From a virus, in the IMG/VR virus record IMGVR_UViG_3300038548_000042, positions 1 through 21,727 of that record: a stretch of DNA of 21,727 nt, one strand, 5' to 3'. Shown here in pieces: positions 1-16,907 of this stretch. Position numbers and translations under genes: made by a program. The first letter of the stretch is position 1, and every line of letters begins with the position of its first letter. The notes beneath the pieces were generated by a model. That model made no database searches. It had not been told where the DNA came from and saw only the letters and a program-made list of their open reading frames with translations.

Positions 1-623
1 GCAACCGAGGTCTAAATTTCTCTGAAGGCGTCCAAGGTACGGATGCTGTTAACCTAAATCAGGTTACAGCAGTAGCTACTAGCATAGCACAGACCGTATT
101 GGCAGGATCATCGGGACAAGGCCAGACAACTGGCGATCCGATCACTTTTAACTTCAATACAGCTACTGGTTCCCAGCTAACCGTTGGTAGGACCGTAGCA
201 GACCTGAATGTTCTATTCGGTGTCCAGGAATTCCTGGGATTGACTGTGATGATCAACGGTGTCTTCCAGATACCAGGTTTGTCTTATTCAGTTACGGATA
301 CTACAGTAGTTACGTTCTCTGAAGCACTAGACCCATCTACAGACGTTACCTTCATCTACGGGGACCTTTCCCCAACTCCTGTCTTCTCTAATATCAATGC
401 TTCGTTGCCTGAGACGACTGCTACGGCTACAGCCGGGCAAACAGTCTTCACGGCACCAACGTACATCATTGGAGATAACCACCTACTGGTGCATATCGAT
501 GGGATCATGCAATCTCTAAACTTTGCAGACTATGCAGAGACGAGTACTACATCTATTACGCTTGATGAAGCCATGGTTGGCGGAGAGCGGATAGTTATTA
601 GAAACATCACAGGTACACCATAA
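1..623 (+). CDS. Tail fibre protein, C-terminal part (5' end cut by window edge)
   Basis: The reading frame is open from the first complete codon at position 3 to TAA at 621-623, so the gene begins outside the window; the TTG at 99 is not a convincing start. 206 residues are visible. The first residues include the pattern GTDAVNLNQV, like the 'DAVN-x-x-Q' phrase common in phage tail-fibre proteins after the virion-anchoring domain. The rest contains two copies of a beta-rich unit of 41 residues, at nt 240-362 and 483-605, each with a 'V-x-I-[ND]-G-[VI]-x-Q' core followed by alternating T/S-rich strands. Such repeats are frequent in fibre and tailspike shafts. It is probably a virion-attached host-recognition fibre. 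It is first in a run of fibre-like genes and its stop codon overlaps the next start (TAATG). The class is fairly sure; the receptor is unknown. Confidence 0.7.
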   Translation, partial: NRGLNFSEGVQGTDAVNLNQVTAVATSIAQTVLAGSSGQGQTTGDPITFNFNTATGSQLTVGRTVADLNVLFGVQEFLGLTVMINGVFQIPGLSYSVTDTTVVTFSEALDPSTDVTFIYGDLSPTPVFSNINASLPETTATATAGQTVFTAPTYIIGDNHLLVHIDGIMQSLNFADYAETSTTSITLDEAMVGGERIVIRNITGTP

Positions 624-757: not shown

Positions 758-993
758 TGGCTAGTCCGAGACGAACAAGAGAGTCAAGCACTTTTAATCT
801 TTCAACCGGTTCTGGAAGGATGGCAGCTAGGTTTGCTATCTCTGCTGTTTCAGCAGTGAACCCGAAGAAAGGTAAGCGAATGATCTCTGAAGCTATCTCG
901 ACTAATCCACAGAAGCCTACTAAGAAAGCTACGGGTAGTCCGATGTTAGACATTACCCAGCCATCGCGTGGGAAGATTCAAAGGAATAAATAA
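757..993 (+). CDS. Small basic hypothetical protein (78 aa)
   Basis: The ATG at 757 overlaps the preceding stop (TAATG) and the TAA at 991-993 overlaps the ATG of the next gene in the same manner. The protein is basic at both ends (PRRTRES near the start, several Lys/Arg-Pro clusters in the last 35 residues) with a short alanine-rich stretch in the middle that could form one helix. No signal peptide, membrane segment or known motif is visible. Its place between two fibre genes and the overlapping junctions argue that it is real and co-expressed with the fibre locus. Possible roles are an assembly helper or minor virion component, but nothing in the sequence shows this. Confidence 0.55.
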   Translation: MASPRRTRESSTFNLSTGSGRMAARFAISAVSAVNPKKGKRMISEAISTNPQKPTKKATGSPMLDITQPSRGKIQRNK

Positions 994-1709
994 TGCCACT
1001 AACTAAGGCACAACCGCCAGTCACAGCTATCAGCGAAATGATCTTCGGAACTACGAATGTTGAAATTCTTAGCTCTGGTGGTGACATCGATGTTAATGTA
1101 GGCGGTGCTGATGTAATTGATCTCAGCTCTACTGAGATTACCGTAGACGATCTAATTACTCTTATTGCGAAGAAGCTGACTACGGAAGTAATGACCGTAG
1201 CTACGACTGCTGGCGCAGACGGTGTTGTTAAGACCGACGCGACTAAGATGCAGGTAGGCTCAACTGATGCAAGCCCACTAGAGATCCTTGTCAATAACAT
1301 TGCTAGAATGACTGTAGGTACAGACGGTAAGGTAGCCCTTGCCACTGTAGGTACAGCATCTGATGAGCTAATCGATAAGGACTATGTTGATACTGGTGAT
1401 GCCAGTGCAGCTACTATCACGAACACCCTTACTACTATCGGAGCTTCGAGCCTCGATGATGGTACCGGTGTACTCCTCCTTAAGTGGGGCGTGATTGCAG
1501 GTGCAGGCACTCCTACTCCTGTGACGTTTGCAATAGCATTCCCGAATGCGCTGTTCACTGTGTTCCTAACTCCGGAAGATGCAGGTACTGCTAACTCGGA
1601 TGGTTGGGCAAACACGACAGCACGAAGCGTAACAGGCTTTGATATTATTCCCGCTGGTAGAGGCGGGGCTTACACAGGCAACTGGAATTGGTTCGCAATT
1701 GGTAACTAA
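993..1709 (+). CDS. Tail fibre protein with gp53-like receptor-binding C-terminus
   Basis: This 238-residue protein starts at the ATG in a TAATG overlap. Residues 1-150 are rich in V/T/D/G with beta-type periodicity and include a shaft-like phrase at 107-133 (VGTDGKVAL followed by a segment ending DKDYVD) that is common in trimeric phage fibres. Residues 163-238 match by eye the compact C-terminal tip seen in many fibres (gp53-like C-terminal domain): LLKWG, then a T/P-rich strand, FAIAFPNALFTV, a long loop, TGF, and the closing WNWFAIGN. That family forms the distal receptor-contacting tip. There is no obvious N-terminal virion anchor, so the protein may attach to the partly seen fibre upstream. 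The last 11 nt overlap the TTG start of the next gene. Confidence 0.7.
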   Translation: MPLTKAQPPVTAISEMIFGTTNVEILSSGGDIDVNVGGADVIDLSSTEITVDDLITLIAKKLTTEVMTVATTAGADGVVKTDATKMQVGSTDASPLEILVNNIARMTVGTDGKVALATVGTASDELIDKDYVDTGDASAATITNTLTTIGASSLDDGTGVLLLKWGVIAGAGTPTPVTFAIAFPNALFTVFLTPEDAGTANSDGWANTTARSVTGFDIIPAGRGGAYTGNWNWFAIGN

Positions 1710-2901
1710 ACTTTCAGATACTGTCATTGAAACGCAGATGGAAGGAAGCTTCCAGCACAACCCTGCGACTACTACTGGTCTCACCTTTGGGATGAAGACT
1801 GGTGATTATAATACCAATGACAATGATACTGTCTTTATAGACCCGACAGTTACCCTAGTCGATGATGCAGTTAACACTGTGTTCATTGATGCAGGAGCTG
1901 ACGGTACGGCTACCCCTGTGCTTAAGGCGCAGACGGCTGGCAGTGAAGACGCTGCTGATCTGAGACAGATCCTCTTTACAGTTACGACTGTGAGTGGAGA
2001 GATCACAGCTATCGTAGATCACAGGACTGGAGCATTGACTCCCTTCCTATCGTCTGCTGGCGGGAGCGGTTCTGCTACTCCGGCTGGAGTAGACAATACA
2101 GTCTACTCTAATCACCTGTTTAATTACTATAGACCAGATGTTTACTATCCTTGTAACGAGGCTAGTGGCGACATACTGTTTGATCAAGCGTCTGGTGCTC
2201 ACGGGATGTATCCGAAGCCTGGTGCGATTGTCTTTCAAGCAGCCGGGCCAAGTGATAACCTACCACACTCATTCGAATCTACTTTAGATGAATGGGCTGG
2301 AGCTGTTCTACCTTATCGAATGCCTCGTACAATGGCCAGTTCAAACAGTAATGTTAACATGGGAGGCATTGTAGCCTTCTGGGTATACTGGCCGACACAG
2401 ACTGAGACAGAAGATTCCTTTCTTTGGGGCTATCGTCAAACCGACCCGAACACAACGAGTGGGTTTGGTTTACTCTCTTATGATGAATCAGCAGATACGC
2501 TTGTTCTGAATAGTCGACTTTCTGGTGAGAGTATAGTAACTTATACTTCAGATCCTGGTATTAGAACTGATGTTATGCCTTATGATGACTGGCATATGAT
2601 CTGGTGGGACTTTCAGATTGATCGTTATAGTATTAGTATTAATGGTAAACATATTATACTAAATCAAATTAACACAGGTCCAGAAGGACTCGGTGTTGCC
2701 TTGTGGCAAAAGGGTGGATTCGGTATTGACATTGATGATGAGCATGTTAACGGTACACAGAATACAGATGCAGGAATGCCTATCAAAAGGATGAGTGCTC
2801 TAGCTATATGGGATAAACCTGTCTCGTTTCATTCGTGGGGAAGCTCCGCAGCATATGATCTTTATCAAGTTGGAAGAAATATAGGACAAGAAGCACCATA
2901 A
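1699..2901 (+). CDS. Putative adhesin: shared N-terminal module plus LamG-like domain
   Basis: The gene encodes 400 residues. I chose the TTG at 1699, inside the end of the upstream gene, because it gives a gap-free match to the start of the paralogue at 4627: both begin M-[VI]-T-K, have Phe18, and have TTGLTF at residues 25-30. The ATG at 1738 would cut this module. Residues 1-112 are the shared module, ending in an 'ILFTVTTVSGEITAIVDHR' strand pair. A G/S-rich linker at 119-131 leads to a C-terminal domain (about 138-395) with LamG/concanavalin-A-like features: a tryptophan strand (AFWVYW), DDWHMIWWDF, a 'YSISINGKHI' hairpin and the closing 'MSALAIWDKP'. Such domains bind glycans or proteins. 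The LamG-coding half is AT-richer than the capsid genes. It is likely a virion adhesin or decoration; the target is unknown. Confidence 0.65.
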   Translation: MVTKLSDTVIETQMEGSFQHNPATTTGLTFGMKTGDYNTNDNDTVFIDPTVTLVDDAVNTVFIDAGADGTATPVLKAQTAGSEDAADLRQILFTVTTVSGEITAIVDHRTGALTPFLSSAGGSGSATPAGVDNTVYSNHLFNYYRPDVYYPCNEASGDILFDQASGAHGMYPKPGAIVFQAAGPSDNLPHSFESTLDEWAGAVLPYRMPRTMASSNSNVNMGGIVAFWVYWPTQTETEDSFLWGYRQTDPNTTSGFGLLSYDESADTLVLNSRLSGESIVTYTSDPGIRTDVMPYDDWHMIWWDFQIDRYSISINGKHIILNQINTGPEGLGVALWQKGGFGIDIDDEHVNGTQNTDAGMPIKRMSALAIWDKPVSFHSWGSSAAYDLYQVGRNIGQEAP

Positions 2902-4325
2902 TGGCATTTGCTACATTAGACAGTACAATCAATGGAGCTAACTTTACGTACAGTAACGGTGACCTTACCGTTGAGAAAACGTCTGGAGTTGTTGCCTTAT
3001 CTACACAACTTAATCAAAGCTTTAAGTATAACTACAAACGATATTATTTCGAAGTAGTTGCAGATGTACTAGATGCTACTAATCCCTTCACAGGTAAGAT
3101 GCACTTCGGTTTAGTGCCAGAACTACGAGCTGATGATACAGACTCGCTAGAGAGTTCTCGCCCCGTTGGAAGCATGTTCTTCCTGAACAGCACTTCAGCT
3201 TCAGGAGCCGAAGCCGTTACCTTTGACGTTCTATCAGATGAGTCTGTTGATATACCTACTGCTGACTTTGCTAGTCATCCTATGACTGGTGCAGGTTGGG
3301 ATGATACAGATGTACTCGGGTGTGTTATTGATGAAGTTATCCCTGGCGAAACTACGGGCGATGGCCTTATACAAGTTTCTTTCTATCTTAATGGTACGCA
3401 TATTAGTACCGTCGATAGTGGGACTTATAATTGGCGTGGTCTTAGCTGGACTGTGGCGCTATCACTTATTGATGCAAACGATAAGATAACTATTCGTACA
3501 GACCCGGCGGACTGGACACAAATCGTACCTCATTACGAAGTGTTCCCTCTTGCTACTGGTGCTCAGGCTATCAGACAGACTAGTGTAGATACTAACTATA
3601 CTAGGATGACGAGCGGCCCGTGGCCTTTGTCTCATAGGAATAAACGAAATATATCTAATGATACAGATGATCCTAATCTCGAACAGATGTTATGGGATGA
3701 TAGTAGAGATCGTTTAGCAGTTTTTAATCCTAAGACTACCAGCAGTATTGTATATTCTCCTGAAGCATTTGCAACTAAAGGACATTCACGAGGCAAGTTT
3801 TATTTTGAAGTAACCCTTAGTGGAACTAATTGGTTTGCTTCTCCTCCAGCTTGGAATATAGGATGGTTCGGAGGTCCAGCTATGACTGGTCCACAAGCTG
3901 GTGTTAAAGATAGTTGGTCATACAAACTTGATACTAGAGCTTTTCAAAACGCCTTTGCAGGAGTTACAGGTATAGGATCTGTAGGCATTCCTGCTAATGG
4001 ATCTGTCCTTGGATTTGCATGTGACTTAGATCGTCAAGATGTAGATACAGGTACTTGGGAGAATGCTTGGTATCTTAATATTGATGGAACTTGGGAAGTA
4101 GATCCTGATAGTGATGCTGTTGGATCTTGGTTCGGCGGACTTGGAATGGGCGCCGGAGCTACAAAAGGACTTAACTTTTATAACTGGGTACCTGGAATTA
4201 AACTAAATGCTTTTACTCCAAATGGAGCTGAAGTGGCTACGTTTAACTTTGGTGCTACAGCTTTTTCCTTAGGTACACTACCAGTTGGTTTTGTTGCTTG
4301 GGACAGTACAGGCATACCCGCATGA
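2901..4325 (+). CDS. Tandem SPRY-like domain protein, putative adhesin
   Basis: The 474-residue product starts at the ATG overlapping the previous stop (TAATG). It has two SPRY-type halves. The first (about 14-205) shows YKRYYFEVVADV, the 'HFGLVPE' strand, DVLGCVID and SFYLNGTHIS. The second (about 265-472) shows RGKFYFEVTLSG, WNIGWFG, WSYKLDTR, NGSVLGFACDLD, WYLNIDGTW and the classical closing pattern FNFGATAF...PVGF. These are the landmark strands of SPRY/B30.2 domains, which share the concanavalin-A-type jelly roll with LamG and bind partners through surface loops. The protein lacks the N-terminal module of its two flanking paralogues, so it must attach to the virion differently. Parts of the second half are AT-rich (43 G/C in the 120 nt at 3661-3780 by hand count), suggesting separate acquisition. 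Confidence 0.65.
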   Translation: MAFATLDSTINGANFTYSNGDLTVEKTSGVVALSTQLNQSFKYNYKRYYFEVVADVLDATNPFTGKMHFGLVPELRADDTDSLESSRPVGSMFFLNSTSASGAEAVTFDVLSDESVDIPTADFASHPMTGAGWDDTDVLGCVIDEVIPGETTGDGLIQVSFYLNGTHISTVDSGTYNWRGLSWTVALSLIDANDKITIRTDPADWTQIVPHYEVFPLATGAQAIRQTSVDTNYTRMTSGPWPLSHRNKRNISNDTDDPNLEQMLWDDSRDRLAVFNPKTTSSIVYSPEAFATKGHSRGKFYFEVTLSGTNWFASPPAWNIGWFGGPAMTGPQAGVKDSWSYKLDTRAFQNAFAGVTGIGSVGIPANGSVLGFACDLDRQDVDTGTWENAWYLNIDGTWEVDPDSDAVGSWFGGLGMGAGATKGLNFYNWVPGIKLNAFTPNGAEVATFNFGATAFSLGTLPVGFVAWDSTGIPA

Positions 4326-4630
4326 GTAGAACTGTACCTCTTAGCTATGGAGCTGTGATAGATAGCCACGTCAATTCTAATTTTTTAGTTAACGCGGCTA
4401 CAACTACCGGCTTGACCTTTGGAGTCAAGGCAGGAGAGATTATCAATGGAGTACTTGTTACCGCGGTCGGGGCTGGAACTATTGCTCTGGCTGATGATAC
4501 CGTTGACCAGCTTGTATTTATTTCTGCTGGTGTTCTCGCACTTGGATCGGGTGACTTCCTACTGTATGAAGTTACTACGGCGTCTGGTGTGATAACTGTA
4601 ATTAATGACAAGAGAGCAGCATACCCTTGA
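4322..4630 (+). CDS. Stand-alone copy of the fibre N-terminal module (102 aa)
   Basis: The ATG at 4322 forms an ATGA overlap with the upstream stop. The whole protein corresponds to the N-terminal module of the genes at 1699 and 4627. It carries ATTTGLTFGVKAGE at 26-39 (three residues later than in the paralogues, with the upstream Phe also shifted by exactly three) and ends in LYEVTTASGVITVINDKRA. It is beta-rich and hydrophobic between residues 42 and 90, with no membrane or signal segment. It stops where the paralogues continue into a linker and LamG domain. It could be the head of a fibre that lost its tip, or an adaptor on which the larger proteins assemble. Its stop shares the TTGA sequence with the next gene's TTG start. 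Confidence 0.65.
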   Translation: MSRTVPLSYGAVIDSHVNSNFLVNAATTTGLTFGVKAGEIINGVLVTAVGAGTIALADDTVDQLVFISAGVLALGSGDFLLYEVTTASGVITVINDKRAAYP

Positions 4631-5841
4631 TTACTAAGGTTAGAAATTTAAGACAAGCTACAGAGTATGACTCTAACTTTGAGCAGGATATTCTCAATAC
4701 AACCGGCTTGACGTTTGCGTTCTTTGCTGGTGAAACCTATCTAGGTAATAGCTTAGTCGATGTTGCAGCCGGTACTGTTACTGTACCCGTTGGAGACTTT
4801 GTGATCTGGCTTGACGTAACTACTGTTACTGTGCCTGCCATGAAAGCAACCAACGTACCAGGCGTAGCAGCTACTGATTCCATAATTCTATACACTGGTA
4901 CTTCTACTACTACAGATATTGATCAGAGTACTGTAGTTGATCATCGTTCTTTTACGACAGGGCATAGAGGCCCTTCTGCTAGTGTAAGCGACGTTGTACA
5001 AACTCAAGACCCTGAGGAAGCTCCTGGTAATGCCTACTGGGTTATGAGATCTAAGATGGCAACGTGGGATGATGTCCATCAAGATTGGAATACTGGCGGC
5101 GATGAGGTCGCAAACGAAAGGCAAACTGTTAATCTCATTATGGATGACGCCGCTGCTCCTCTAAGAGCGATCGGTGTAGCAAATGATGATTATACTATTA
5201 CTGGTTCTCCAGGCTTTGGAGAAGTAGGCCCGACCTTCTTAACAGGTCAATCTCTCGGTGCTATGTCCTTTGATGGTACTAATGATTATATTACCATAGA
5301 TGTTAATACTTTCTCTGCCGCACTACAAGGTGTTATTTGGGGATGGTTCTATACATTCGCTGCTGGTGCTGGTGGTGGACGACAGATCATAGCACAGTCT
5401 AATGCAGCTTCTAGTGTTAGTTGTGAAGTTCTAGTGAGCGGTGCTAATAAATTAAGTTATAATAACTTTACGACAACCAGTCAATATAGACTTGATGTTG
5501 ATCCTACGCCCTCTAATGATACTTGGCATTTTGTTACTATCGTTCAACGAGCTGATACCAACGGAGTTCAGATAACTCTGGATGGTGTCCTATATAATAA
5601 AGATACGGGTAATACTACTGAAACTCTTAGTGGTACTGGAAGCAGAGACGATTTTTATAGTAAGACTTGGAATGCCCTTGGTAGACAAGGAAGATATGCA
5701 GCTCGTGGAAATACCTCAGCATCTTTTAAATGGGAAGGCAGACTTTACGACGTAGGAATAGCTGTACCTAATCCAACAGAGTTTCCTCTAGTCTGGTCAG
5801 CCGCTAACGTAGCGAAGTTACACCGTTGTGCTGGATTCTAA
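4627..5841 (+). CDS. Putative adhesin: shared N-terminal module plus LamG-like domain, second copy
   Basis: This 404-residue protein starts at TTG 4627, overlapping the preceding TGA (TTGA). The start is supported by the position-for-position match with the gene at 1699 (Phe18, TTGLTF at 25-30). Residues 1-112 form the shared module, ending near VVDHRSF. A linker with TWDDVHQDWNTGG follows, then a clear LamG-like domain at about 185-395: AMSFDGTNDYITI, GVIWGWFYTF, DTWHFVTIVQR, VQITLDGVLY and 'FKWEGRLYDVGIA'. This set of strands is typical of Laminin_G_3/concanavalin-A-like lectin domains in secreted and virion proteins. The LamG domain looks much more canonical than the one encoded at 1699, and the two C-termini do not align well by eye, so only the head was duplicated. 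It is a probable receptor- or glycan-binding appendage. Confidence 0.68.
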   Translation: MITKVRNLRQATEYDSNFEQDILNTTGLTFAFFAGETYLGNSLVDVAAGTVTVPVGDFVIWLDVTTVTVPAMKATNVPGVAATDSIILYTGTSTTTDIDQSTVVDHRSFTTGHRGPSASVSDVVQTQDPEEAPGNAYWVMRSKMATWDDVHQDWNTGGDEVANERQTVNLIMDDAAAPLRAIGVANDDYTITGSPGFGEVGPTFLTGQSLGAMSFDGTNDYITIDVNTFSAALQGVIWGWFYTFAAGAGGGRQIIAQSNAASSVSCEVLVSGANKLSYNNFTTTSQYRLDVDPTPSNDTWHFVTIVQRADTNGVQITLDGVLYNKDTGNTTETLSGTGSRDDFYSKTWNALGRQGRYAARGNTSASFKWEGRLYDVGIAVPNPTEFPLVWSAANVAKLHRCAGF

Positions 5842-6412
5842 TTATCACATAAACTTTCTTGGGTTCGGTAATCCTGACAAGGACCGTACTCATCTTAAAG
5901 ACGTTGGTGGTAGGTATCGTACGAATATATTCTGCGATTTTAATACTACACGCCACGAGAAGTACCCTCCGTTATATACGATGAGGGAAGCTCCACATAA
6001 GGGGCTACCCAGTGCATACCAGATCTATATGTACTCCGAGAGTGAGTATAATGCAGCGATGAAGCTGGTCGGATCGTGGGCACACTGGCAAAGATTACTT
6101 GCTTGCCCAGCTTTCATGAAAGGTCCTGAAGACGCATTTAGTTGGACGGGACTAGAAGACTGGAGAACGGAGAAGGAACTTAGGGATCAAGCTAACGCAT
6201 ACATGCAGCTCAAGGAAGCTGCTGAGAGTGGAAACGTGCAAGCACAAAAGTTAATATACGAAGGGAAGGGAACCGCTAGCAAACGAGGCCGTCCTAGTAA
6301 AGCTGAAATTAAGGCGGCAGCCGAAGAGGCTGCTCAACATGCCAAAGACATCAAGAACGATGTCAAGAAATTAAAGTTAGTAATCAATGGCGACAAAGCA
6401 GGAAGTAATTGA
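5828..6412 (+). CDS. Terminase small subunit
   Basis: The 194-residue product lies immediately before the large terminase gene and overlaps it by 26 nt. The frame has an upstream TAG at 5810-5812, and GTG 5828 is the first plausible start; it overlaps the preceding gene by 14 nt and has only a weak ribosome-binding site. The N-terminal half has no motif I recognise but is rich in aromatics. Residues 111-145 are helical and charged. Residues 152-158 read KRGRPSK, an AT-hook-like GRP element, followed by an alanine/lysine helix to the end. Small terminases bind phage DNA at the packaging initiation site and regulate the motor ATPase. Assignment rests on gene order and this C-terminal DNA-binding style tail, since small subunits diverge strongly. 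Confidence 0.72.
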   Translation: MLDSNYHINFLGFGNPDKDRTHLKDVGGRYRTNIFCDFNTTRHEKYPPLYTMREAPHKGLPSAYQIYMYSESEYNAAMKLVGSWAHWQRLLACPAFMKGPEDAFSWTGLEDWRTEKELRDQANAYMQLKEAAESGNVQAQKLIYEGKGTASKRGRPSKAEIKAAAEEAAQHAKDIKNDVKKLKLVINGDKAGSN

Positions 6413-7952
6413 TATATGCGCGAAGCATCTCTTTGCATTTGCAAAGCTGATCAACCCGCACTATCAATACGGAGACCTACATGAGAAAGTATTTGCCTTA
6501 CTGGCTGATCCGAGGGCTAACAAGAGACAACTGTTTCTGTTACCCCGTGGACATCTCAAGTCTCATTGTATTGCTGTGTATTGCGTTTGGCGCATTACTT
6601 TTCAGCCTTGGATAACGATATGTTATCTATCCGCTGGAGAGGACCTGGCGAAAGACCAGATTTACGCAATCAAGAATATGCTTACGAGCGAGACATATAC
6701 TCGCTACTGGCCGGAGATGCTAAACGATGACGAAGGACGAAGAGAACAATGGTCTGCGTTCTCATTCAATGTTGACCACCCTGATCGAAAGAGGCGGGGT
6801 ATACGGGATCATACGCTCATCGTCAAGACTGTTAAGTCGAACGCTATCGGACTTCATTGTGATCTGCTTATACCAGACGATGTGGTTATCCCTCAGTTTG
6901 CTGATACGGCTACTGGGAGAGGAGAAGTCAATCGCTCCCTTGCGCAGTTCACCTCCATCCTCAACCCCGGTGGTGAGATTAAAGCGGTGGGCACGCGATA
7001 CAATCCGGCGGATGCCTATCAGGATATGATCGATGCTCGGTATTCCGTATGGGATGCTGAGAAGCAAGAGTTCAATGGCACCGCACCGATGTGGGATGTC
7101 ATGGAAGAGGTGGTAGAAGATAAGAGTGATGGGACAGGAAACTTCCTATGGCCGAGAGTCTTCTCACCAGAGACTGGAGAAGGATACGGATTTGATCCAG
7201 AGATACTTGCGATTATCAGAGCAGACTATGAGTCAAAAGGACAACATGTTCAATATTTTTGTCAGTACTATAATGATCCTAATGCGATTGATCTCCAATA
7301 TATTAATCGGGGTAGCTTTCAGTATTATGATCGTGGTTCTGTATCTGTTTCTAGCGGTAGGGTATCTATTGGAAACAAAAACCTTAACACCTTTGCGGCG
7401 ATGGATGTCGCGTGGACGGACTCTTCTGGGTCGGATTACACGGCAATTCTAGTTATCGGAATAGACTCCGATGGCTTTATCTATGTTCTAGACAGCTCAC
7501 AGTTTAAGACTAGTAACTTCGCTGTCTACTATGATGAAGTTATAGCTCTCCATTACAAGTGGGGATTCAAGAAGATCCGAGTTGAGACTAACGCAGGTGG
7601 CCAGTTTGTTAAGAACGAACTAGAGCGCCTGATCAGACAGAACGGGAATATCCTGGCTGTCGAAGGACGCTCGGTTACCAAGAGTGCAGGTACCAAGGCG
7701 GAAAGGAAAGCAGCAACTCTCCACTGGAGATACGAAGCCAAAACCATTTGGCATTATCGGGGGGGATACACCCCTGATCTAGAAGATCAAATCATTCTGG
7801 ATAGACCCAGACATGACGATCTAGTTGACGCACTAATTGCTGCTATTGAAATTAGCAAACCACCCGGTAAGAGAATGCAACAACAACCTCAAACTGAAAG
7901 TAACGTAGTTTATGATACCCGCTTTGGCGGGCGTAGGAGCAGAGTAGCATGA
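6387..7952 (+). CDS. Terminase large subunit (packaging ATPase/nuclease)
   Basis: The 521-residue protein has both terminase domains. ATPase: Walker A-like LLPRGHLKSH at 51-60 (Arg54 and Lys58-Ser59), Walker B-like CDLLIPDD at 158-165 with the acidic pair Asp164-Asp165, and the coupling motif VGTRYNPADAY at 201-211. Nuclease (RNase H-like fold): Asp340 in FAAMDVAW, Glu400 in RVETNAGG, and the terminal HDDLVDALIAAIE at 476-488. These are the expected metal-binding acids. It pumps DNA into the prohead through the portal and cuts the concatemer. The length is a little below T7 gp19 (586). The start is ATG 6387 within the end of the small-subunit gene; the stop shares ATGA with the portal start. 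The assignment is very secure; the Walker A has Leu where Gly or Ala is more usual. Confidence 0.95.
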   Translation: MATKQEVIDICAKHLFAFAKLINPHYQYGDLHEKVFALLADPRANKRQLFLLPRGHLKSHCIAVYCVWRITFQPWITICYLSAGEDLAKDQIYAIKNMLTSETYTRYWPEMLNDDEGRREQWSAFSFNVDHPDRKRRGIRDHTLIVKTVKSNAIGLHCDLLIPDDVVIPQFADTATGRGEVNRSLAQFTSILNPGGEIKAVGTRYNPADAYQDMIDARYSVWDAEKQEFNGTAPMWDVMEEVVEDKSDGTGNFLWPRVFSPETGEGYGFDPEILAIIRADYESKGQHVQYFCQYYNDPNAIDLQYINRGSFQYYDRGSVSVSSGRVSIGNKNLNTFAAMDVAWTDSSGSDYTAILVIGIDSDGFIYVLDSSQFKTSNFAVYYDEVIALHYKWGFKKIRVETNAGGQFVKNELERLIRQNGNILAVEGRSVTKSAGTKAERKAATLHWRYEAKTIWHYRGGYTPDLEDQIILDRPRHDDLVDALIAAIEISKPPGKRMQQQPQTESNVVYDTRFGGRRSRVA

Positions 7953-14091: not shown

Positions 14092-16458
14092 ATGGCTGTA
14101 GCTGAACAGACTAAGAACTTTGTCAACCTTACGGGTGGTCTTAATACAGATGCGCCCAAGCTTAGCTTTCCTGACAACGCTGCTACCGACCTTGATAATG
14201 TAGATATCTTCCGTACCGGAGACGCTAAGCGTCGCCTCGGTGCTGACTTTGAAGATGCTTATTCACTTAGTAACCAAGACTTTGAGCCTGGTTCTATTGA
14301 TACAGCGGGGATGTCTACCCATGAGTGGCTGTCAGTAAACGGCAGAGGTGACCTTAACTTCTTAGCTGTACAAGTAGGCTCGGATATTATCTTTCACGAT
14401 CTCGGTATTGACCCTGTGTCAGGCTCCGTGATCGGACAGATCAGTCTTGAGTCTTTCGCCAAGGGGAATGGAGTACCCGGAGATTCCTTGATGGACTCTT
14501 CGTTTGGTGAGGGGATTATGATCTTCACCAACCCAAACATGCAGACTGTTATCATCGAGTATGATGAAGACACGACTACATTTTCAGCTACGGGTATTGA
14601 AATTCAGATTAGAGATTTCGATGGAGTCGATGACGGACTTGATGTACAAACTCGTCCACTCGACCTCAGTAATAAACATAAGTATAACTTAAGAAACCAG
14701 GGATGGCCAGTAACTGCTACTGTAAATTTATCCCGAGGTGGAGCAGACGGAGTTTCGCAAGGTATAGATCCAATCGAGGCTACCAAGAGTATCACTCAGG
14801 ATCTGAGGATTGGGAGACTAGTTATCCCCGGCGTTCCGGGCGAGACAACGACAACTCTCGGAGTCTATCCATCTAATGCAGATATTATTTACGCAGCAAA
14901 AGCACCATCAGCCAAGACAGGGAAAGAGGAAGTAATTGGCTCTTACAGTCCTTTCCATTTGGACGACGTAATTCTCGGTAATACACCCGCACCCAAAGGA
15001 CACTTCTTAATGGATGCCTTTGACCAGGACAGGACTGCTGTTTCTGGTATCGCAGGACTAGACAAGGTTGTTACGACAACTCGACCTTCAGTGACTGCAT
15101 TTTATGCAGGTAGGATTTGGTACGCTGGCGTAGCAGATGTTAACCTAGCAGGAGATGTATTCTTTAGTCAAAGTCTGACCGACATTAAATTTGCTGGTAA
15201 GTGTTATCAAGAGTTTGATCCCACAGCCGAAGATCTGAATGTTCTGCTGGCAACTGACGGTGGTGTGATACACATCGCTGACATGGGCCGCGTATACAAG
15301 ATGACTCCGGTTGGCCAGGACCTTGTGATTGTAGCAAGTAATGGTGTGTGGGCTATCTCTGGTACTAATGGTGGTAACTTTACAGCCGTAGACTTTACCG
15401 TTCGTAAGGTTACTGACGTAGGCACTACCTCTCGTGACAGCATAGCAGTGGCCGATGGCATACTGTACTACTGGAATGAGGGTGGCATCTATGGAGTGCA
15501 AGGAAGCCAGATTAATACAGAGGTCTCTGTTGTAAGGATTACCCGAGACAAGATCCAAGAGTTCTATGATCCTATCCCGGAAGCTGCCAAGGCGTATGTA
15601 CGCTCTTGGTATGACTCTTACGATAAGAAGATCTATTGGTTCTATAATGATACGGGCGGGTATGATGGTATCAGTTTCCGGTTTAATTACAACCGGGTCT
15701 TGGTACTAGATCTTACCCTGCAAGCATTCTATCCCTACACGATTAGCGACCTTGATACTAATACTCCCTTCATAGCTGGTATGACTCAGAAGAGTCCTGG
15801 CAGCGAAGACATCATAACCTACGATGTGGTTGATAGTATCAGTAATCCGGTAGAGCAGGGAGGAGATAATGTTGTAGAAGATATAGCGTTCCCTGTGTTC
15901 ACGAATGCTAAGCTGAAGCTGCTTACGTTTGTTATAAACGAAGACAGCAAGTATGAGTACACCTTCTCAGAGTTCAAGTCCCGTACCTTTACGGACTGGA
16001 TTACCTGGGATCAGTTCATTAATGATGTTACCAATACCGGTGCTGACTATCTAAGTCTCATCCAGGTGGGGTGGCAGAACTTTGGTGACCTCGTACGAGA
16101 TAAACATATCACGCACATCACTCACTTCTTTAATCTGACAGAGACAGGATACTCTCTTGACGTTCTAGGAGATATAGTATTCGATAACCCGTCTGGTGTG
16201 ACAGCACAGATGCGGTGGGAGTGGACTGAATTAGATGTGGGCAGATGGACAGCCAAGCAAGAAGCTTATAGGCTAAACAGAAACTACATACCAGAAGATG
16301 AGAACGATCCCTTTGACTACGGGTTCGAACTAGTTAAGACTAAGCTAAGAGCTAGGGGGAAGGGAACCGCCTTCTCGCTGCGTTACGAGTCTGAGACCGG
16401 TAAGGACTTCCAGTTGCTAGGATTCGCTATCAACATTAGGGCCGGTGCAAAGGTCTAA
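14092..16458 (+). CDS. Tail tubular protein B-like (tail nozzle)
   Basis: The 788-residue protein is nearly the length of T7 gp12 (794) and follows the adaptor genes. The N-terminus (NFVNLTGGLNTDAPKLSFPDNAATDLDNVDI...RRLGAD) has the expected nozzle-family phrase in which a Gly-Gly turn is followed by a Pro- and Asn-rich segment and an Arg-Arg-Leu-Gly. The body is beta-rich with many aromatic strands, fitting the propeller-like folds of these nozzles (for example HIADMGRVYKMTPVGQDLVI and GVWAISGTNGG at about 395-425). It would form a hexameric ring at the distal tail end, holding fibres and gating DNA exit. The ATG at 14092 has GGAA 7 nt upstream. The stop overlaps the next ATG (TAATG). Confidence 0.85.
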   Translation: MAVAEQTKNFVNLTGGLNTDAPKLSFPDNAATDLDNVDIFRTGDAKRRLGADFEDAYSLSNQDFEPGSIDTAGMSTHEWLSVNGRGDLNFLAVQVGSDIIFHDLGIDPVSGSVIGQISLESFAKGNGVPGDSLMDSSFGEGIMIFTNPNMQTVIIEYDEDTTTFSATGIEIQIRDFDGVDDGLDVQTRPLDLSNKHKYNLRNQGWPVTATVNLSRGGADGVSQGIDPIEATKSITQDLRIGRLVIPGVPGETTTTLGVYPSNADIIYAAKAPSAKTGKEEVIGSYSPFHLDDVILGNTPAPKGHFLMDAFDQDRTAVSGIAGLDKVVTTTRPSVTAFYAGRIWYAGVADVNLAGDVFFSQSLTDIKFAGKCYQEFDPTAEDLNVLLATDGGVIHIADMGRVYKMTPVGQDLVIVASNGVWAISGTNGGNFTAVDFTVRKVTDVGTTSRDSIAVADGILYYWNEGGIYGVQGSQINTEVSVVRITRDKIQEFYDPIPEAAKAYVRSWYDSYDKKIYWFYNDTGGYDGISFRFNYNRVLVLDLTLQAFYPYTISDLDTNTPFIAGMTQKSPGSEDIITYDVVDSISNPVEQGGDNVVEDIAFPVFTNAKLKLLTFVINEDSKYEYTFSEFKSRTFTDWITWDQFINDVTNTGADYLSLIQVGWQNFGDLVRDKHITHITHFFNLTETGYSLDVLGDIVFDNPSGVTAQMRWEWTELDVGRWTAKQEAYRLNRNYIPEDENDPFDYGFELVKTKLRARGKGTAFSLRYESETGKDFQLLGFAINIRAGAKV

Positions 16459-16907
16459 TGTTAACCTTTCAGGAAGAGTACTGGGATGCAGTTGAAGAGA
16501 TTAAAGAATATCTTGAAACACACTACGAAGAGGCAGGAGTTTTTGACCTCCCTCTCGAACCAGCCTGGGATCTTTATGAAGAAGGAAGTCGAGCAGGAAA
16601 GTATATCATCCTCACAGCCCGAGACGAAGAACAATCGCTCGTTGGCTATACGACTTGGTGGATTGGCTCTCACAGTTATCATAGTGGGTATATTGTGGCT
16701 GTATCTGATATGGTCTACTTAGCCCCTGACTACCGAGGACCAGACTCTATGGAGTTTATCCAGTGGAGTGAAGAGGAGCTATACGCTAGACACGGTGCAG
16801 ATATAATCAGCATAGGGATGCATGTTAAGAAAGACTTCTCTAGTATGCTAGAACATTTGGGTTATGAAAAGACTGCTATCGTTTGCAGCAAACACTTAGG
16901 AAATTAA
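16458..16907 (+). CDS. GNAT-like protein at the T7 gene 13 position
   Basis: The 149-residue product starts in a TAATG overlap. It has the order of a small GNAT fold: an acidic helical start (4-45), strands around YIILTARD and LVGYTTWWIG, then the strand-loop-helix AVSDMVYLAPDYRGPDSMEF at 81-100 in the place of the acetyl-CoA pyrophosphate loop, and a final strand-helix-strand (IISIGMHVK, MLEHLGYEKTAIVCSK). The loop has Arg93-Gly94 but Asp96 where the usual R/Q-x-x-G-x-G/A pattern has Gly, so cofactor binding is uncertain. Similar small GNAT-like proteins lie before the internal virion genes of several podophages, where T7 has gp13 (139 residues). It may help virion maturation or have lost catalysis; the sequence does not decide this. 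Confidence 0.6.
   Translation: MLTFQEEYWDAVEEIKEYLETHYEEAGVFDLPLEPAWDLYEEGSRAGKYIILTARDEEQSLVGYTTWWIGSHSYHSGYIVAVSDMVYLAPDYRGPDSMEFIQWSEEELYARHGADIISIGMHVKKDFSSMLEHLGYEKTAIVCSKHLGN

Follow-up and report, generated by a model that had tools for sequence, protein, structure and literature searches.

In a 21.7 kb viral fragment (IMG/VR record IMGVR_UViG_3300038548_000042, positions 1 to 21,727; the window), four consecutive genes, g1699, g2901, g4322, and g4627, lie between a tail-fibre-like gene, g993, and the probable small terminase gene (TerS) of an uncultured Zobellviridae-like podophage. We consider it likely that these genes form an accessory adsorption (tail-fibre) cassette encoding short fibres that combine a shared attachment module with separate jelly-roll tips. 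Tail appendages are favoured because the locus is homologous in position to the tail-fibre/host-range genes of Vibrio phage ICP2, tail-fibre genes flank the cassette, and the module matches a tail-fibre anchor of solved structure.

A preliminary description of the window had read this region as four overlapping genes for a LamG protein, a tandem SPRY protein, a stand-alone module, and a second LamG protein. The gene layout is real. The four genes are arranged head-to-tail on the plus strand, fill positions 1699-5841 without gaps, and overlap each other and both neighbours by 1-14 nt, with TAATG at 2901, ATGA at 4322, and TTGA at 4627. The listed open reading frame (ORF) of g4322 starts at an upstream TTG (4298), but we prefer the ATG at 4322 because it forms the ATGA overlap with g2901. 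The TTG starts of g1699 and g4627 support each other since the resulting N-termini match (MVTK and MITK). As had been described, several adsorption-type proteins carrying jelly rolls of the LamG and SPRY types are encoded in a row beside the podophage terminase genes.

The shared shoulder module

A module of about 100 residues begins both g1699 and g4627 and makes up the whole of g4322. BLAST comparison of the three proteins gave E-values of 2e-9 (g1699/g4322), 1.5e-8 (g1699/g4627), and 3e-5 (g4322/g4627). Over the aligned stretches g4322 is 39-40% identical to the N-termini of the other two, and the window modules are 24-36% identical over the alignment. A profile of the module family matched its own members g1699, g4627, and g4322 with E-values of 1.9e-45, 5.9e-43, and 3.2e-34, respectively; it recovered all three window copies and one copy in a relative, L008, and none in the 34 other records of that search. 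What had been called a stand-alone module is therefore the same domain that begins g1699 and g4627.

Pfam does not recognise the module in the window proteins. Among 177,635 Protein Data Bank (PDB) sequences, the sole significant match of the module profile was 8KEC, with E-values of 6.9e-6, 5.6e-5, and 4.7e-6 for profiles of 5, 6, and 11 sequences, respectively. 8KEC is the long tail fibre gp34 of Anabaena phage A-1(L), in which a shoulder domain (residues 1-155) anchors the fibre to the baseplate wedge and an arm binds host cells (PMC10966104). The matched stretch, residues ~60-145, falls inside the shoulder domain. Judged by these profile matches, the module and part of the baseplate-anchoring shoulder are homologous, and we refer to the former as the shoulder module.

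Copies in other phages are likewise found in the N-terminal part of tail proteins and are followed by a variable distal part, as in g1699 and g4627; this holds for L004, L169, L217, L218, L220, and L221. The module precedes fibre repeats in L169, directly follows a tail protein (Rcc01698/Phage-tail_3) in L220 and L221, and occurs together with Mtd_N in L004. The last case prompted us to consider a link to the Mtd intermediate domain; the module profile had no Mtd match in the PDB and no such claim is made. L218 (3602-5748) encodes two tandem shoulder modules with DUF2793, and the next gene, which overlaps it, has a SPRY product recognised by Pfam (1.7e-16). The gene after the shoulder gene of L221 is LamG-like, with E-values of 0.0067 by Pfam scan and 3.7e-6 when that record was searched singly. 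The pairing of shoulder and jelly-roll genes therefore recurs outside the window phage. The copy in L008 is a stand-alone ORF of 118 amino acids (aa), located directly before TerS and after another protein gene.

Several searches yielded little beyond these copies. In tblastn searches of GenBank phages with the four cassette proteins, a single module match was obtained, in L004. IMG/VR scans with g1699, g2901, g4627, and the module query A1 returned no relatives, PDB sequence searches with the whole cassette proteins gave no match, and nothing was confirmed in bacterial genome scans with TerL and L004. Multiple small separate genes sharing an anchor module were not found elsewhere in these scans, which, using shallow profiles or patterns, miss distant relatives.

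Predicted jelly-roll domains of the cassette proteins

The preliminary description had proposed a Pfam comparison and structure prediction as checks on its fold calls. When the four proteins were scanned directly against Pfam and PHROG, neither LamG nor SPRY was matched, and the LamG region of g4627 and the SPRY regions of g2901 both scored below the Pfam gathering cut-off. AlphaFold2 models were unusable, with a predicted local distance difference test (pLDDT) score of 30 for g2901 alone and 29 for g4627 together with two relatives. Because neither a direct Pfam match nor a usable structure model was available, the fold calls rest on sequence profiles. These were built from phage domains that Pfam does recognise (10 and later 21 LamG domains; 17 SPRY domains) and judged against 1384 background ORFs and, for each query, 200 shuffled sequences; the hhalign comparisons used 150 ORFs drawn at random as controls. 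The 1384-ORF background includes some true family members, which scored at the top as expected.

For g4627, the phage LamG profile gave 18.5-19.1 bits, above all non-LamG ORFs of the background, and hhalign gave a probability of 86-88% with a score of 44-46, compared with ~25 for the best unrelated control. These profile scores support a LamG domain in g4627. The C-terminal half of g2901 matched the SPRY profile with 19.7 bits (hhalign 83%, score 41) and the N-terminal half with 7.4 bits (hhalign 73%, score 37), the best unrelated control reaching 23 in both cases. In addition, the C-terminal half matches phrog_10080 (E 0.006), a family that the Pfam-recognised SPRY protein of L218 matches at 1.2e-30. 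Since both halves exceed every unrelated control ORF, the profile comparison supports SPRY domains in both and the tandem arrangement described earlier holds. The C-terminal region of g1699 gave 9.0 bits (E 0.06, 0/200 shuffles) and an hhalign probability of 5%; this signal rose from nothing as the profile grew and is thus profile-dependent, so that the LamG call for g1699 is only suggestive. The proposal of LamG domains at both 1699 and 4627 therefore stands for g4627 and is not established for g1699. For g4627 and g2901, the phage-derived profiles provide the support that the direct Pfam scan and AlphaFold2 did not.

Accessory character and possible architecture of the cassette

The features of the locus are listed in Table 1. 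In five relatives with TerL proteins 63-72% identical to that of the window (L005, L006, L007, L009, and L010), a g993 homolog lies directly before TerS and the cassette is absent. No other close relative had both flanking genes in readable form; L007 retains just the end of its g993 homolog, with the junction still visible, and L006/L007 and L009/L010 are near-duplicates, so that the five represent about three lineages. The G+C content at third codon positions (GC3) is 0.35 in g1699, 0.27 in g2901, 0.34 in g4322, and 0.28 in g4627, which is below all eight other genes measured: g993 (0.40), g0 (0.43), and six genes from TerS to the internal virion protein (0.44-0.57). Overall, the cassette has a GC content of 43.6% compared with 48.1% elsewhere. 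These values fit a cassette that was probably acquired recently, but low GC3 may have other causes.

Table 1. Genes of the cassette and its surroundings in the window.
Feature	Position	Strand	Description	Family match
g0	3..623	+	3' part of tail-fibre gene; flanks the cassette, outside it	phrog_2710 tail fiber protein, 1.6e-9
g993	993..1709	+	Tail-fibre-like, Gp53-like C-terminal domain; left cassette boundary	PF21882 Gp53-like_C, 1.3e-11
g1699	1699..2901	+	TTG start, 400 aa; shoulder module (residues 2-111) and probable jelly-roll (LamG-like) C-region, LamG suggestive only	
g2901	2901..4325	+	474 aa; two tandem SPRY-like jelly-roll domains; no shoulder module	
g4322	4322..4630	+	ATG start, 102 aa; stand-alone shoulder module	
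g4627	4627..5841	+	TTG start, 404 aa; shoulder module (residues 2-110) and C-terminal LamG (~203-330)	
TerS	5828..6412	+	Probable small terminase; right cassette boundary	phrog_8035 (function-unknown family), 3.7e-28
TerL	6387..7952	+	Large terminase; phylogenetic anchor	phrog_38, 1.2e-79

From 5828 on, the gene order is TerS, TerL, portal, a gene in the scaffold position, major capsid protein, tail proteins, and a large internal virion protein, and TerS is kept directly before TerL in nearly all TerL relatives. TerL is ~42-47% identical to Zobellviridae TerL proteins, e.g., those of GX1-k141_326647 and ICP2, with which the gene order is shared. Within the 21.7 kb fragment, the description as Zobellviridae-like thus draws on TerL homology and on the order TerS-TerL-portal to major capsid protein-tail-internal virion protein. 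A homolog of g0 occupies the equivalent place in L009 and L010. Between g0 and g993, a small basic ORF of 78 aa (757-993) has no family match, and a 63 aa ORF is similarly placed in L006. A gene with an acetyltransferase family match (16458-16907; phrog_1249, 2.6e-7) separates the genes of the tail appendage from those of the internal virion proteins.

The region that precedes the terminase genes differs in content among other relatives, which have genes there for beta-helices, collagen-like fibres, a beta-propeller, and a SASA esterase, as well as one clear LamG gene (L042). The beta-propeller-like gene (WD40 2.6e-5) lies between fibre genes at 1806-2924 of L009, a close relative without the cassette, and the SASA sialate O-acetylesterase domain (2.6e-10) at 4409-5911 in the block upstream of TerS of L015, a more distant TerL relative.

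We propose that the cassette entered the genome by insertion between g993, the resident fibre gene, and the gene for the small terminase. g1699 and g4627 would be short fibres or spikes that the shoulder module attaches to the tail and probably trimerises, with their C-terminal jelly rolls acting as receptor-binding tips that contact the cell surface. The tandem SPRY protein g2901 would be an adhesin that lacks its own anchor and is probably held in place by a shoulder protein encoded next to it. The bare shoulder g4322 could be this adaptor, a role that is a guess prompted only by the adjacency of the two genes. Attachment to a podophage tail is inferred from homology to a contractile-phage fibre, and we likewise infer a location in the virion, trimerisation, binding of surface glycans, and an effect on host range. 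The cassette would probably change the cell surfaces to which the virus can stick. Several observations weigh against this proposal. The LamG call for g1699 is weak; g2901 lacks the module, which leaves its attachment unexplained; the match to 8KEC extends over no more than part of the shoulder and involves a contractile-tailed phage, so that attachment to a podophage tail is an extrapolation; and both AlphaFold2 models failed.

The four proteins might instead build a single hetero-oligomeric branched adhesin, with g4322 as the core adaptor, g2901 plugged into it, and g1699 and g4627 as side arms. This arrangement is possible but not probable. It would account for the overlapping, gap-free genes and for the presence of a shoulder-only protein beside a SPRY protein that lacks an anchor, and the stand-alone module of L008 also follows another protein gene. 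Ackermannviridae provide a precedent in which several receptor-binding proteins are joined via their N-terminal domains (PMC11414711, PMC8825819). However, the modest identity among the window modules argues against a branched adhesin, nothing bears directly on an interaction, and no adaptor-binding domain of the XD type turned up, although no search was aimed at one.

We regard it as improbable that g4322 is a decayed, functionless fibre that has lost its tip, as its small size and its place as a bare module between tip-carrying genes might suggest, because its ORF is intact with tight start/stop overlaps on both sides and a stand-alone module also exists in L008. Some of the jelly rolls could be enzymes of the glucanase or depolymerase type instead of lectins, given that glucanases occur in the concanavalin A-like superfamily and that TerL relatives carry depolymerase-type beta-helices and the SASA esterase at this locus. 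This is very unlikely: the GH16-type ExDx(x)E motif is absent from all four cassette proteins (0/4), on which ground glucanase activity was rejected, no glycoside hydrolase profile matched, and SPRY domains are binding modules. The preliminary description had left the choice between several separate appendages and a capsid decoration. Other phages do have capsid decorations of Ig-like and lectin-like type, and the cassette adjoins head genes, but a role on the capsid surface, by which particles would adhere better to surfaces or mucus, is the least likely reading, since relatives have fibre genes at this locus, fibre genes flank it, the module matches a tail-fibre anchor, and no evidence of capsid decoration was found.

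The adsorption cassette may also point to a more general modular principle of one anchor and many tips, in which the small attachment module is multiplied, alone or fused, and paired with separately encoded docking SPRY and LamG proteins. Tips would then be swapped gene by gene and not by recombination within one fibre gene; we hold this generalisation to be rather doubtful. If the proposed role of the cassette is correct, the ~100-residue shoulder module offers a sequence handle by which the receptor-binding proteins of uncultured phages could be located and annotated even where their tips have diverged beyond recognition. It would further suggest that a podophage can acquire several short fibres in one step, in the form of a gene cassette, and so alter its host range in a way distinct from exchange of the end of one fibre.

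Comparison with known phage systems

In ICP2, the tail-fibre/receptor-binding genes 22-25 occupy a position homologous to that of the cassette, directly upstream of TerS/TerL, and mutations in gp25 and gp23 alter the use of the OmpU receptor (reviewed in PMC10264812). ICP2 differs in encoding few large proteins, and searches of ICP2 for the shoulder module and Laminin_G_3 found neither. The shoulder of A-1(L) gp34 resembles the window module, but gp34 belongs to a contractile-tailed phage and forms one long fibre with a T4 gp37-like arm in place of LamG or SPRY tips. The branched tailspikes of Ackermannviridae likewise consist of side-by-side receptor-binding proteins attached via N-terminal domains. 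Unlike the window proteins, they are large beta-helical tailspikes with XD adaptor domains.

The closest counterparts in domain content are L193-L213 and SPRY virion proteins of the phrog_10080 type, in which the same two jelly-roll types occur together. SPRY and LamG share a polypeptide in 14/16 of the viral ORFs retrieved with one SPRY query, a fraction biased by the fact that these ORFs were found as relatives of a query that itself has both domains. The shoulder module was not found in the 11 SPRY and LamG contigs tested. The combination of SPRY and LamG in phages is therefore not new, and the earlier view that a row of lectin-like proteins is unusual in itself was too strong. L193-L213 encode both domains in one ORF of 440-1308 aa, whereas the window distributes them over separate small genes. 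The unusual feature is this distribution over small individual genes, grouped around an anchor module that is repeated, and the cassette is a new combination of known parts.

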